From: Rhizobium sp. TH2
GTDB lineage: Bacteria > Pseudomonadota > Alphaproteobacteria > Rhizobiales > Rhizobiaceae
Assembly: GCF_024707525.1 (NCBI RefSeq)
Contig: NZ_CP062231.1
Location: forward strand, 1,736,001 to 1,800,000
Length of the DNA stretch: 64,000 nt
Direction of reading: 5' to 3'
The position numbers were made by a program, and so were the translations under genes. A model generated the notes under the pieces. That model was not told where the DNA came from. It ran no database searches and saw nothing but the letters and a program-made list of their open reading frames with translations. Shown one piece after another: positions 11,809 to 17,676 of the stretch (position 1 is the first letter of the stretch; every line of letters starts with the position of its first letter).

Positions 11809-12978
11809 TCAGAAGATCTCCGCCACCGGCTGGCCGAGAGCCATCGCACCGGCATATCGCGCCTGAGGTCCCGATTGAAGCGGATGAAAGCGTGCACCTT
11901 GCACATCGCGGAAGCGCCGCTCCAGTCCGTTGGCCCGATAGAACCCGGCCCCGCCGGCGAGTTCCATCGCAAACTCCGTCGCCTCGATCGCATGGCGGGC
12001 GACGAGGGAGCGACCGATCATCACTTCATTCACGCTCTCCGCAGACGGCGCATTGCGGGCGACGATATCGAGCATCCAGCGGTGTGCGAGTTGTGCGGCG
12101 CGGAGCGAGGTATCCATCCGCCCGGCGAGGCTGGTGGCGTGATCGCTGGCGGGCTTCTTCCTGGCAAGATCGATGGCGATGTCGCGGGCGCTTTCGGCGA
12201 TGCCGAGATAGACCGCGTAGATCAGGGGAAAGGCGACGGTCGCGATGACCTGGAACAGTGGATGCCATTCGCCGGCCTTTCGCGACAGCGCCACGTTGGC
12301 GTCAGGGATGAAGAGGTTCTCGAACACCACATCGTTGGACCCCGTGCCGCGCATGCCGAGTGTCCGCCAGGTGTTTTCGATCCTCACCTCGGGTGATTTC
12401 ATCGGCGCGCCGAAATGGATGACGGACCGCGTGCCATCCGCCGCCTCATGAACGGCACCGGTCATCAGGATCGCCCCGGCTTCGGCGCCCGATGTGAACA
12501 CCTTGCGGGCGTTGATGCGGTAGCCGCCATCGACCTTTTCGGCTTTCCCGGAACCGCCTATCCAATCCGAGCCGCCGCTGGAGAGCAGGATCAGGCGTTC
12601 GGCGGCGACGCGCTTGAGTAGCGGTTCGACGGCGGCGACTTTCTGGTGCCTCCAGCGCCAGGCGGGGATCGCCACCTGATGTGTGTGCATCGAGAAAGCG
12701 AGCGCGGTGGAACCGCAGGCGTGTGCGAGGATGCGGAGCATGTCCGCCAACTCGGCGACTTCCGCGCCACCACCGCCAAGCTCGACGGGCACGGCTGCCT
12801 CGACCAGGCCTGATTCCTTGAGCAGGGCGTAGTTCTCGCTGACGAAGCTATCGCTTTCATCTGTTGTCGCGGCGCCATCCGCGATCGCCGATGCCAGCGA
12901 TGCCGCAATCTCGGCAACGCTGCGCTTGGGGGTGTCCATCGTATTCGGGGAAAGTGCAAATTCCGCTGCGGCTTGCAT
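11809..12978 (-). CDS. acyl-CoA dehydrogenase-like flavoprotein (DszC/monooxygenase type), 389 aa
   Basis: Acyl-CoA dehydrogenase fold. The N-terminal helical domain includes LLKESGLVEAAVPVELGGGGAEVAEL; the central barrel has YRINARKVFTSGAEAGAILMTGAV; the C-terminal helical domain has ATEFAMELAGGAGFYRANGLERRFRDVQGA, in which the catalytic Glu of true dehydrogenases is not evident. That places it nearer the flavin-dependent desulfurization/monooxygenase branch. Start at 12978 with GGAGG 8 bases upstream. Divergent from an HxlR regulator, a common arrangement for a regulated redox enzyme. Substrate unknown. Confidence 0.8.
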   Translation of the reverse strand: MQAAAEFALSPNTMDTPKRSVAEIAASLASAIADGAATTDESDSFVSENYALLKESGLVEAAVPVELGGGGAEVAELADMLRILAHACGSTALAFSMHTHQVAIPAWRWRHQKVAAVEPLLKRVAAERLILLSSGGSDWIGGSGKAEKVDGGYRINARKVFTSGAEAGAILMTGAVHEAADGTRSVIHFGAPMKSPEVRIENTWRTLGMRGTGSNDVVFENLFIPDANVALSRKAGEWHPLFQVIATVAFPLIYAVYLGIAESARDIAIDLARKKPASDHATSLAGRMDTSLRAAQLAHRWMLDIVARNAPSAESVNEVMIGRSLVARHAIEATEFAMELAGGAGFYRANGLERRFRDVQGARFHPLQSGPQARYAGAMALGQPVAEIF

Positions 12979-13166
12979 GTCGATATCCTCCAATTGTGAA
13001 ACTATGCCATCGACCTTGCCTGCACTTCCGACCAGCTTCCAGTTCAGGAACTGTACTGCTCGGTGAGACGGGTCGCTCGACCATGTTTCTGAGAATGGCG
13101 ACACGTGTTGGTTCTGGTGGAAATCTCGACTATCATGGGTTTTTCGTCGACCTTGAGAGGTCTCCA

Positions 13167-13859
13167 ATGCAAGAGCGCGGTGGGTATGGACAGTTCTGTC
13201 CGGTTTCGATGGCGTCGGAGATTCTGTGTTCGCGCTGGACGACGCTTGTGGTGCGCGAATTGCTCTGCGGTTCGACGCGCTTCAACGAACTTCGCCGCGG
13301 CGTCCCCAAAATGTCCCCGGCACTGCTTTCCAAGCGTCTCAAGGAACTCGAACAGTCGGGCGTGGTCACGACATTGCGCAAACCGGGAGGCGCTGTGGAG
13401 TATGGGCTGACGCCGGCCGGCGAAGAGCTTCGTCCGCTCATCATCGGCCTTGGAAACTGGGCACAGCGATGGATGGAATCCAGGCTGTCGCTGAAGAATC
13501 TCGATCCTTCGCTGCTGATGTGGGACATGCGCCGCAACCTCGATGCCGGGCATCTGCCGTCCCGCCGCTGCACGATTCAGTTTCTGTATCCCGAACTCAT
13601 TGCCTCGCAGAAGAGTTGGTGGCTTGTGGTCGAGAACGGAAGTGCTGATCTCTGCAATTTTGACCCCGGATACGATCTCGACTTGCTGGTGCGTGGATCG
13701 CTGCGGTCGATGACCGCCATCTGGATGGGCCTCACCACCATCCGGCGCGAGGCCGATGCAGGCCAACTTGATATCGAGGGCGATCCTGCGATCGCCAAAA
13801 GCATGCAGCAATGGCTTGGCCTGAGCGGTTTCGCGACCGTGCAGCGAATGGCGCAGTAA
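13167..13859 (+). CDS. HxlR-family transcriptional regulator, 230 aa
   Basis: The N-terminal HxlR winged helix (about 8-100) shows FCPVSMASEILCSRWTTLVV, then RFNELRRGVPKMSPALLSKRLKELEQSGVV and a wing with EYGLTPAGEEL. The C-terminal extension of about 120 residues (MWDMRRNLDAGHLPSRRCTIQF onward) may be a ligand-binding domain. Start at ATG 13167 with GAGAGG just upstream; longer frames toward 12864 run over the divergent gene. The 188-bp gap to the dehydrogenase gene probably holds both promoters and its operator. Confidence 0.85.
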   Translation: MQERGGYGQFCPVSMASEILCSRWTTLVVRELLCGSTRFNELRRGVPKMSPALLSKRLKELEQSGVVTTLRKPGGAVEYGLTPAGEELRPLIIGLGNWAQRWMESRLSLKNLDPSLLMWDMRRNLDAGHLPSRRCTIQFLYPELIASQKSWWLVVENGSADLCNFDPGYDLDLLVRGSLRSMTAIWMGLTTIRREADAGQLDIEGDPAIAKSMQQWLGLSGFATVQRMAQ

Positions 13860-13962: not shown

Positions 13963-13992
13963 TTGACTCATGAACAAAAATGGAACAAATAA
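13963..13992 (+). promoter_or_regulatory. LexA (SOS) box in a promoter
   Basis: GAAC-AAAAATG-GAAC (13972-13986) fits the alphaproteobacterial LexA operator GTTC-N7-GTTC read on the other strand, including the flanking AAA. A TTGACT -35 candidate at 13963-13968 places the box between -35 and -10, an ideal repressor position. It precedes the 28-codon gene and dnaE. Confidence 0.7.
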
Positions 13993-14018
13993 GAAACATA
14001 AACGAACAGGAGGCGTAA

Positions 14019-14105
14019 ATGACCGATTTTCTTCGCGACATGGCAGCGTTCACCTCAATCGTCATGTTTGTAACCAGCTGCGCTGTGTTGATGATCACTT
14101 TCTAG
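14019..14105 (+). CDS. 28-aa single-span membrane micro-peptide, SOS-controlled (SidA-like in kind)
   Basis: ATG with a consensus AGGAGG ribosome-binding site 5 bases upstream. The peptide starts MTDFLRDMAAF and continues into an unbroken hydrophobic span TSIVMFVTSCAVLMITF, so it is predicted to be a one-pass inner-membrane peptide with a short charged cytoplasmic end. A LexA box sits in the promoter. Caulobacter SidA, a 29-residue SOS-induced inner-membrane division inhibitor, has the same size, architecture and control; whether this is an orthologue cannot be told by eye. dnaE begins 85 bp downstream on the same strand. Confidence 0.7.
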   Translation: MTDFLRDMAAFTSIVMFVTSCAVLMITF

Positions 14106-14190: not shown

Positions 14191-17100
14191 ATGGCAGGTG
14201 ATTCTCATTCGGGGACGGAACAGGCGCTTAGCGAGAGCCCGCAATTCGTCCATCTGAGGGTCCATTCGGCCTATTCGCTGCTCGAGGGCGCACTGCCCGT
14301 CAAGAAGATCATCGCCAAGGCGCTCGACGACAATCAGCCCGCCATCGGGCTGACCGACACCAACAATCTCTTTGCCGCGCTCGAATTTTCCAAGACCGCC
14401 TCGGGCGATGGGCTCCAGCCGCTGATCGGCTGCCAGCTCTCGATCGACATGGAAGACGAGTCCGGCGACGACAGGAACGGCCGCCAGCAGCAACTGCGCA
14501 AGCTGCCGGCAATCGTGATGATCGCCGCCACATCAGAGGGCTATCACACACTGTCCGGCCTCGTCAGTCGCGCCTACATGCAGGGCGAGGGGCCGGGCAC
14601 CATCCACATCAAGCGGTCCTGGCTCGGGGATTCCGTTCCCGGCGTGATTGCGCTGACCGGAGCACGCGGCGGACCGGTGGATTCGGCCCTCGTCGAGGGT
14701 CAGCACGATGTCGCCGAGGCGCGGCTTAGGGCGCTCGCGTCGCTCTTCGGTGATAGGCTCTATGTCGAACTGCAACGGCATGGAAATTACGACCACGCGC
14801 ATGAAGCGGCGATGATAAATCTCGCCTACCGTTTCGAACTGCCAATCGTCGCGACCAACGAGCCGTTCTTCCCGACGCTGGATTATTTCGAGGCCCATGA
14901 CGCGCTGATGGCGGTGGCCCACAATGCGATGGTCTCCGACGACAACCGTTTCCGCCTGACGCCCGACCACTATTTCAAGTCGCGCGCCGAGATGGCGAAG
15001 CTCTTCGCCGACCTGCCGGAAGCGATCGACAACACGGTGGAGATCGCCCGCCGCTGCTCCTTCATCCTCAAGACCGTGGCGCCGATCCTGCCGCGCTTCA
15101 CCAGCGAGGCCGCCGTTGAGGGTACGGATCCAGAGTCGGAAGAACTGAAGCGCCAGTCCTGGGAAGGGCTGGAAATGCGGCTCAAGACCATCGGCCTGGC
15201 ACCTGGCTATACCGAGACGGATTATCGCGACCGGCTGGAATTCGAACTCGGTGTCATCGAGGGCATGAAGTTCCCCGGCTACTTCCTGATCGTCGCGGAT
15301 TTCATAAAATGGGCCAAGGCGCATGACATTCCGGTCGGGCCGGGCCGTGGTTCGGGCGCGGGCTCGCTGGTCGCCTATGCTCTCACCGTCACCGACATCG
15401 ACCCGCTCCGCTTCTCGCTGCTCTTCGAACGCTTCCTCAATCCCGAACGCGTCTCGATGCCCGACTTCGACATCGACTTCTGCCAGGACCGGCGCGAAGA
15501 AGTGATCCGCTATGTCCAGGCCAAATACGGCCGCGAGCAGGTGGCCCAGATCATCACCTTCGGTTCGCTGCAGGCCCGCGCCGCGCTGCGCGACGTCGGC
15601 CGCGTGCTCGAAATGCCTTACGGCCAGGTTGACCGCATCTGCAAACTGGTGCCGAACAACCCGGCCAACCCGACGCCGCTCTCCAAGGCCATCGAGGAAG
15701 AGCCGCGCCTGAAGGAAGAGGCCGAGCGCGAGCCGGTCATCGCCCGCCTGCTCGATATCGCCCAGAAGATCGAGGGCCTCTACCGCCACGCCTCGACGCA
15801 TGCCGCCGGCATCGTCATCGGAGACAGGCCGCTCGCCGAGCTCGTGCCGCTCTATCGCGATCCGCGCTCGGACATGCCGGTCACCCAGTTCAACATGAAA
15901 TGGGTCGAGCAGGCCGGCCTGGTGAAGTTCGACTTCCTCGGCCTCAAGACGCTGACCGTGCTGAAGACCGCCGTCGACCTGATCGCCCGAAAGGGCATCC
16001 ACATAGACCTCGCGGCGCTGCCGCTCGACGATCCCAAGAGCTACGAAATGATGTCGCGCGGCGAGACGGTCGGCATCTTCCAGGTTGAAAGTGCGGGTAT
16101 GCGCAAGGCGCTGCTCGGCATGAAGCCCGACTGCATCGAGGACATCATCGCGCTTGTGGCGCTCTACCGCCCCGGCCCGATGGAAAACATCCCGGTCTAC
16201 AACGCCCGCAAGCACGGCGATGAAGAGATCGAATCCATCCACCCGATGATCGACCACCTGCTCAAGGAAACCCAGGGCGTCATCGTCTATCAGGAACAGG
16301 TGATGCAGATCGCCCAGGTGCTCTCTGGCTATTCGCTCGGCGAAGCCGACATGCTGCGCCGCGCCATGGGCAAGAAGATCAAAGCGGAGATGGACCAACA
16401 GCGCTCGCGCTTCGTCCAGGGCGCGATGGCCAACAAGGTGTCGAAGCCGCAGGCCGACAATATCTTTGATCTCCTGGCAAAATTCGCCAATTACGGTTTC
16501 AATAAATCCCACGCCGCCGCCTATGCCGTGGTGTCGTTCCAGACCGCCTATATGAAGGCGCATCATCCGGTCGAATTCCTCGCCGCCTCGATGACGCTCG
16601 ACATGGGCAATGCCGAGAAGGTCAACGACTTCCGCCAGGATGCGCTGCGCCTCGGCATCAAGGTCGTGGCGCCCTCGGTGCAGACCTCATTCCGACCCTT
16701 CGAGGTCGGCGAGAACTGCATCTATTTCTCGCTCGCGGCAATCAAGGGCGTCGGCGAGGCGGTGGTCGAGCACATCGTCGAAGCGCGCGGGACCACGCCT
16801 TTCGCCAGCCTCGAGGATTTCTGCCTGCGCACCGATCCGAAATTCGTCAATCGCCGCGTCTGGGAAAGCCTGATTTTCGCCGGCGCCTTCGATTGCTTTG
16901 GCGTCGATCGCGCGCTTCTGTCCGGTGGCATCGATCGCCTGATGGCCTTTGCCCAGCGGGCAGTGTCCGACAAGGTCAGCGGGCAGGGCGATATTTTCGG
17001 CTCTATGAGTTCCGGCCCGGAAAAGATCATCTTCCAGCCTGTCGCGCCATGGCTGCCGTCGGAAAAGCTGCTCAAGGAATTCCAGGTCCTGGGCTTCTAC

Positions 17101-17676
17101 CTCACCGCCCATCCGCTCGATACCTATGGCAGTCTCCTGGAGAAGATGCGGGTCCAGACCTTCGCCAACTTCTCCAACGCCGTCAAACAGGGCAAGGCGC
17201 CCGGCCGGCTCGCAGGCACCGTCACCTCGAAACAGGAGCGCAAGACGCGCACCGGCAACAAGATGGGCATCGTTACCTTCTCGGATTCCTCCGGGCAGTT
17301 CGAGGCCGTGATGTTCTCGGAAGCCTTGGCACAGTACCGCGACGTGCTGGAGACGGGCAAAAGCTTCGTGATCGGCGTCGAGGCCGAAGAGCGGCCGGAG
17401 GGCATCAGCCTCAGGATCAACTCCCTGCAATCGCTCGAGGAAAAATCGGTGCAGATGCAGAAGGCGATGCGCGTGTTCCTGCGCGATGCCGGACCGCTCC
17501 GCAGCGTCACCACCCATCTCGGCACGCGCGGCGAGGGACTCGTCTCCTTCATCCTGATCAAGGAGGACGGTCGCAAGGAGATCGAGGTCGAACTGCCCGA
17601 GAAATACCGTATCTCGCCGGAGATTGCCGCGGCGCTGAGGGCTAGCCCCGGGGTCGTGGACGTGGAGCTTGTCTAG
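14191..17676 (+). CDS. dnaE: DNA polymerase III alpha subunit, replicative
   Basis: Catalytic subunit of the replicative polymerase; 1161 residues, the normal DnaE1 length. The N-terminal PHP domain begins FVHLRVHSAYSLLEGAL. The C-family active site is seen as GPGRGSGAGSLVAYAL and MPDFDIDFCQDRREEVI with two of the catalytic Asp residues. Finger and clamp-binding regions follow (YRPGPMENIPVY, GVIVYQEQVMQIAQ, FNKSHAAAYA) and the C-terminal OB fold starts near AGTVTSKQERKT. Start at ATG 14191 fits the family. The stop overlaps that of the convergent TetR gene in a CTAG. Confidence 0.98.
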   Translation: MAGDSHSGTEQALSESPQFVHLRVHSAYSLLEGALPVKKIIAKALDDNQPAIGLTDTNNLFAALEFSKTASGDGLQPLIGCQLSIDMEDESGDDRNGRQQQLRKLPAIVMIAATSEGYHTLSGLVSRAYMQGEGPGTIHIKRSWLGDSVPGVIALTGARGGPVDSALVEGQHDVAEARLRALASLFGDRLYVELQRHGNYDHAHEAAMINLAYRFELPIVATNEPFFPTLDYFEAHDALMAVAHNAMVSDDNRFRLTPDHYFKSRAEMAKLFADLPEAIDNTVEIARRCSFILKTVAPILPRFTSEAAVEGTDPESEELKRQSWEGLEMRLKTIGLAPGYTETDYRDRLEFELGVIEGMKFPGYFLIVADFIKWAKAHDIPVGPGRGSGAGSLVAYALTVTDIDPLRFSLLFERFLNPERVSMPDFDIDFCQDRREEVIRYVQAKYGREQVAQIITFGSLQARAALRDVGRVLEMPYGQVDRICKLVPNNPANPTPLSKAIEEEPRLKEEAEREPVIARLLDIAQKIEGLYRHASTHAAGIVIGDRPLAELVPLYRDPRSDMPVTQFNMKWVEQAGLVKFDFLGLKTLTVLKTAVDLIARKGIHIDLAALPLDDPKSYEMMSRGETVGIFQVESAGMRKALLGMKPDCIEDIIALVALYRPGPMENIPVYNARKHGDEEIESIHPMIDHLLKETQGVIVYQEQVMQIAQVLSGYSLGEADMLRRAMGKKIKAEMDQQRSRFVQGAMANKVSKPQADNIFDLLAKFANYGFNKSHAAAYAVVSFQTAYMKAHHPVEFLAASMTLDMGNAEKVNDFRQDALRLGIKVVAPSVQTSFRPFEVGENCIYFSLAAIKGVGEAVVEHIVEARGTTPFASLEDFCLRTDPKFVNRRVWESLIFAGAFDCFGVDRALLSGGIDRLMAFAQRAVSDKVSGQGDIFGSMSSGPEKIIFQPVAPWLPSEKLLKEFQVLGFYLTAHPLDTYGSLLEKMRVQTFANFSNAVKQGKAPGRLAGTVTSKQERKTRTGNKMGIVTFSDSSGQFEAVMFSEALAQYRDVLETGKSFVIGVEAEERPEGISLRINSLQSLEEKSVQMQKAMRVFLRDAGPLRSVTTHLGTRGEGLVSFILIKEDGRKEIEVELPEKYRISPEIAAALRASPGVVDVELV

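Follow-up and report, generated by a model that had tools for sequence, protein, structure and literature searches.

The 28-codon open reading frame (ORF) directly upstream of dnaE in Rhizobium sp. TH2 is very probably the rhizobial counterpart of sidA, encoding a LexA-repressed SidA-family inhibitor of division that would probably act on FtsW. The gene lies in what we call the window, the whole 64-kb stretch of DNA that was analysed, taken from a genome of 6.4 Mb. On its + strand, a −35 element TTGACT (13963-13968), read directly from the sequence and conserved in the promoters of the family, is followed by a LexA box GAAC-N7-GAAC (GAACAAAAATGGAAC, 13972-13986), the sole exact box in the window. 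The box sits between the −35 element and the presumed −10 element, a likely candidate being CAAATA (13986-13991), which was picked by eye 17 bases past the −35 element; a promoter scan of the locus returned no consensus sigma-70 promoter. A third half-site-like repeat, AAAC (13994-13997, +), stands 11 bases beyond the second half-site of the box and is followed by a further GAAC (14004-14007, +), the repeats being spaced at intervals of 11, 11 and 10 bases. A Shine-Dalgarno sequence AGGAGG (14008-14013, +), also conserved in the family, precedes the 28-codon ORF MTDFLRDMAAFTSIVMFVTSCAVLMITF and its stop (14019-14105, +), and 85 bases separate this ORF from its conserved downstream neighbour dnaE (14191-17676, +), recognized as the gene of the replicative DNA polymerase III alpha subunit by the Pfam models DNA_pol3_alpha, PHP and others. 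Every element of this order, from TTGACT to dnaE, had been claimed in an earlier note on this DNA and was found in the sequence. The plan proposed there for the peptide, a charged head and a single span as in SidA, was also borne out at the level of prediction: hydropathy and inspection by eye indicated a charged head (D3, R6, D7) and then one membrane span, in which basic residues are absent, over 28 residues against 29 in SidA. A scan found no terminator between the peptide gene and dnaE, and the two possibly share a transcript. Directly upstream of the locus is a gene for an HxlR-domain regulator (12864-13859), whereas genes of a lipoprotein-release ABC transporter occupy the upstream position in a Sinorhizobium meliloti record (L215), and the gene to the left is thus not the same in both.

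The earlier note had staked its reading in part on conservation of the peptide and the box in close relatives, and both are indeed conserved. The peptide was matched in 9/9 genomes of the genus, our own included, with E values of 2e-5 or better. At the family level, the single sequence as a query matched 121 of 297 genomes at E<=1, and a profile (A1) matched 116 of the 297, representing 41 of 109 genera, at E<=0.01; in the 181 genomes that gave no A1 match at this threshold, the peptide is either lost or too divergent. The best family matches were inspected, comprising 36 loci (L009-L044) with our own among them. dnaE lies beside the peptide in 34/36; the exceptions are L010, which is cut off by the end of its contig, and L019, a second match of low strength. 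The latter, with no box and no dnaE found, was excluded from the box and codon counts. A perfect box is present within 90 bases of the start in 32 of the 35 remaining loci, our own included, and the second half-site reads GTAC in L029, L036 and L037. In one family genome (G284), three places matched the profile (E 4e-6 to 2e-5) and may represent paralogues.

All complete in-frame copies that were inspected have 28 residues, and a stop at codon 29 was found in each of the 34 loci that extend so far. For the codon test, L010 (same genome as L018) and L017, in which the start is out of frame, were excluded. Among the resulting 33 codon-aligned copies, pN averaged 0.18 and pS 0.59, with pN the smaller in 527 of 528 pairs, and the differences at the three codon positions were 0.29, 0.06 and 0.51. 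Taken together, the fixed stop, the low pN and the codon-position pattern indicate that the ORF is a protein-coding gene. Six residues (M1, R6, A9, A10, S13 and F17) do not vary among the 26 Rhizobiaceae copies that were aligned. These 26 peptides end at the span and contain no tryptophan, whereas most other members have one. Comparison of five peptides with Pfam gave only sub-threshold matches. Phage carriage is unsupported, as a phage collection gave no peptide match at E<=1, and a plasmid collection yielded a single match, on a Shinella replicon of 4.6 Mb in which dnaE occupies its expected position.

The promoter region was compared in 36 family promoters, consisting of 34 from the L009-L044 set and two Sinorhizobium records. 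TTGAC was retained in 32, and in 33 the −35 hexamer ends 3 bases ahead of the half-site registered as first. GAAC is read at this half-site in 36/36 and at the second in 33/36, where the second and third repeats of L015 and L043 were scored as first and second. At the third position, 11 bases on, 14 of the 36 read GAAC and 18 read AAAC. A Shine-Dalgarno-like motif is present at 35/36 family loci. Three perfect half-sites occur in S. meliloti (strain Ak57; locus L215) and Sinorhizobium sp. K101. A second LexA dimer may use the third repeat, or this repeat could belong to the start region instead. Among the dnaE loci of the class, L143 and L159 each carry two perfect GAAC-N7-GAAC boxes ahead of the SidA-like gene, as if double operators had arisen more than once.

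Perfect boxes number 99+80 (179) in the own genome and matches to the reversed pattern 71+69 (140), so that the box taken alone is near chance and an argument from this genome by itself is weak. A stricter SOS promoter pattern selected three places in the genome, the window gene included, and the lexA gene of this genome is preceded by a like box (GAACATAAATGGAAC), 64 bases before the lexA domain match. TTGAC with a LexA box was also observed elsewhere in the genome (L213, G000:C3:37129-37156, minus strand) before a short ORF whose frame stops after 75 codons and whose start, we presume, resembles ImuA.

We then turned to the DNA upstream of dnaE in the class Alphaproteobacteria. dnaE was located in 150/153 genomes, and the census covered the upstream DNA of 148 dnaE loci, excluding our own genome and G449 (contig too short), with three loci (L097, L100 and L174) shortened by contig ends. 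GAAC-N7-GAAC was found in either orientation within 600 bases of dnaE in 27/148 loci; as controls, 11 half-sites with permuted letters occurred in 0 to 5 loci and 15 other spacings in 0 to 9. The GAAC orientation is present at 21 loci, of which 20, from 14 families, carry a mini-ORF with a single predicted span behind the box (19 recognized with a hydrophobicity filter and L143 with a profile), the exception being L198; none of the six loci with only the reverse orientation does. When 2906 mini-ORF starts on both strands were scanned, 20 loci scored at least 15 bits, and in each of them a perfect box precedes the start by 28 to 60 bases. The next plus-strand score was 9.4 bits, without a box, and the best reverse-strand ORF reached 6.8 bits. 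Nineteen of these 20 high-scoring loci were themselves in the profile; L143, which was not, scored 15.3 bits. In the class loci, between 121 and 397 bases separate the start of the peptide from the dnaE match that follows. The Rhizobiaceae profile matched 17/249 genomes of the order at E<=0.1, including 12 from other families, and nine of ten out-of-family loci inspected have dnaE downstream together with a perfect box, the tenth being without dnaE. Across 289 genomes of the class, the same profile matched our own genome and gave nine partial matches (E 0.004-0.085). The dnaE loci in plasmid records of two Rhodobacterales and one Methylobacterium (L218, L219 and L220) have neither a LexA box nor a SidA-like ORF in about 900 bases upstream.

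These comparisons bear on the possibility that a chance ORF follows a chance LexA box, or that the box serves dnaE alone. The near-chance number of perfect boxes in the own genome would fit such a view, as would a 2012 survey that lists dnaE among alphaproteobacterial genes with LexA sites and so assigned the site to dnaE (PMC3323433). On the other hand, the combination exceeds chance because box, promoter, length and peptide are kept in relatives, and because GAAC-N7-GAAC near dnaE outnumbers the permuted and spacing controls across the class. A chance box is thus ruled out by conservation, although the box count of the genome alone would not do so. With the conserved peptide, the selection at the protein level and the leave-out profiles described below, we regard this explanation as extremely improbable.

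The gene in the same position in Caulobacter was then identified. Four Caulobacter genomes, found with an S-layer bait and including two metagenome assemblies, were examined, and in 4/4 a 29-codon ORF lies directly before dnaE behind the box GAACATCTTGTGAAC. Three distinct versions matched the NCBIfam model NF033228 for SidA with 73.4-74 bits over 29/29 positions, the cut-off being 35. As the Caulobacter ORFs match this equivalog model, which catches the Caulobacter versions, the position ahead of dnaE is that of sidA, and the Caulobacter gene in it is SidA. We take the tags CCNA_02004 (sidA) and CC1926 (dnaE) to be those of neighbouring genes. The former has been given for sidA (PMC10769358) and the latter for Caulobacter dnaE (PMC1839093). 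SidA is a 29-residue inner-membrane protein that acts on FtsW (PMC4211646), and Caulobacter lexA mutants filament on account of sidA (PMC12700426). Structural models have placed SidA on helix 7 of FtsW, a placement that its authors do not hold with high confidence (PMC13396833).

The relationship between the rhizobial peptides and SidA was examined with profiles from which one group at a time was left out. All 31 left-out peptides scored above all 196 hydrophobic controls, with 7.5 to 36.6 bits; the window peptide obtained 27.4 bits, likewise above all 196, and Caulobacter SidA 18.4-18.8 bits. In this test, L071 and L084, which belong to one family, were left out singly and not jointly, and the start was picked by eye where several were possible. 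Because the Rhizobiaceae profile had served to select nine of these 31, the 19 class peptides and the three SidA versions constitute the cleaner evidence. Neither the window peptide nor three relatives from the Rhizobiaceae matched NF033228 at E<=1, and five other slot peptides gave no match at E<=10. The model did match L143, at 20.5 bits, below the cut-off of 35. L143, being matched by both the family profile and NF033228, links the rhizobial and SidA sets. A direct match of the Rhizobiaceae profile to SidA was also considered and was not significant: the profile made from Rhizobiaceae only does not single out Caulobacter SidA, with a shuffle fraction of 0.03 for one version, the smallest, and 0.33 for another. 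Homology therefore rests on intermediates and position, and the comparisons point to common descent with SidA through intermediates only. Without a match to NF033228, the window peptide is named a SidA-family member by slot and leave-out profile, and not a member of NF033228. The results also indicate that the SidA family is far wider than NF033228 detects. A membrane toxin of the TisB/DinQ type, induced in the SOS response to depolarise the membrane and make dormant cells, would be similar in size, SOS control and single span. Both the slot and the sequence relation point to SidA instead, and the rhizobial span is without basic residues, making a toxin of this kind very unlikely.

In S. meliloti, the corresponding region can be related to published data. 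In the record CP090106.1, about 470 bases without annotation separate dnaE from an ABC transporter gene, and they contain MADFVRDLAAFASMSLFIVSISVIALGL behind TTGACT and a triple operator. This record, the locus L215 mentioned above, is titled S. meliloti plasmid pSymB, measures 3.7 Mb and carries dnaE and the lipoprotein-release transporter genes; it may be a mislabelled chromosome. Ribosome profiling in S. meliloti 2011 revealed a translated small ORF, sORF25, in the 5'UTR of dnaE1, which was discussed as a possible upstream ORF (PMC10117765); LexA, SOS and SidA are absent from the main text of that article. We consider sORF25 likely to be the SidA-like gene of S. meliloti. Its listing among possible upstream ORFs, and the position before dnaE in 34/36 family loci, would also suit a leader peptide that is itself inert and whose translation regulates dnaE in cis. 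However, selection acts at the protein level on a peptide of fixed length, the peptides are related across families when judged against hydrophobic controls, the start is 121 to 397 bases away from the dnaE match in the class, and the slot is occupied in Caulobacter by SidA, a protein acting in trans (PMC4211646). A leader peptide is accordingly quite unlikely in our estimation. Among the matches listed in the open-licence literature, the portions of text concerned, including those of PMC13384398, PMC9578287, PMC13396833, PMC12700426, PMC10811719 and PMC9638019, describe no SidA homologue outside Caulobacter; earlier remarks may exist elsewhere.

We propose the following mechanism for the SidA-family inhibitor of the window organism. 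In an undamaged cell, LexA would bind two, perhaps three, GAAC half-sites filling the spacer between the −35 and −10 elements and block the promoter. Upon DNA damage, RecA filaments would bring about self-cleavage of LexA, the promoter would fire, and the strong ribosome site would allow a burst of the 28-residue peptide. Its charged head (D3, R6, D7) is predicted to stay in the cytoplasm, with residues ~9 to 28 across the inner membrane. The peptide would most likely bind FtsW in the late divisome and keep the FtsW/FtsI/FtsN complex inactive, and with division held, cells would filament until repair is complete. It may be that the peptide is a SidA-family division inhibitor whose rhizobial target in the septal complex differs from FtsW, considering that the tryptophan common elsewhere is missing from the 26 aligned peptides of Rhizobiaceae, which end at the span, and that Caulobacter DidA works through FtsN (PMC4211646). 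The simplest reading retains the SidA target, and we think a change of target unlikely. Along with inhibition of division through FtsW, part of the transcript would probably continue into dnaE and provide more replicative polymerase. As no terminator was found, damage-driven read-through into dnaE is plausible, and together with the linkage to dnaE this suggests that damage would raise dnaE expression as well.

On a broader scale, SidA may be an ancestral alphaproteobacterial SOS division brake, forming one operon with the replicative polymerase under a LexA operator (often triple in Rhizobiaceae) that, after damage, both halts division and replenishes DNA polymerase III; on this proposal our judgement is evenly balanced. 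The gene is a concrete candidate for the agent of division arrest after DNA damage in rhizobia and many other alphaproteobacteria. It would explain the LexA site credited to dnaE (PMC3323433), as well as the small ORF with no assigned role that is translated ahead of dnaE1 in S. meliloti (PMC10117765). The four Rhizobiaceae copies tested are missed by the curated SidA model, and the divergent peptides found across the class represent natural variation with which to map how a helix of ~28 residues blocks the septal wall machine.

Several known systems can be compared with this gene. DidA, YneA, SosA and ChiZ are damage-induced small membrane proteins that inhibit division at a late stage (PMC4211646, PMC13396833), and we claim no relation to them in sequence or position. 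The 2012 survey likewise has a LexA site before dnaE, but credits it to dnaE, and the part of the survey dealing with the site leaves a peptide gene unmentioned (PMC3323433). sORF25 of S. meliloti 2011, which is translated, is like the window gene a small ORF in front of the polymerase gene, and strain Ak57 has a 28-residue homologue in that position. The closest counterpart is SidA of C. crescentus. The rhizobial peptide is unlike SidA in having no NF033228 match and, in the Rhizobiaceae copies, no tryptophan; its operator in Rhizobiaceae is often a triple repeat. On the other hand, the two share their size (28 against 29 residues), a single span, the slot before dnaE and the relation seen in the leave-out profiles, and the LexA operator in the promoter, a SidA trait, is present here as a predicted site. 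The analogy with SidA is thus stronger than first claimed, as SidA of Caulobacter sits in this very position ahead of dnaE and shows a sequence relationship via intermediates.
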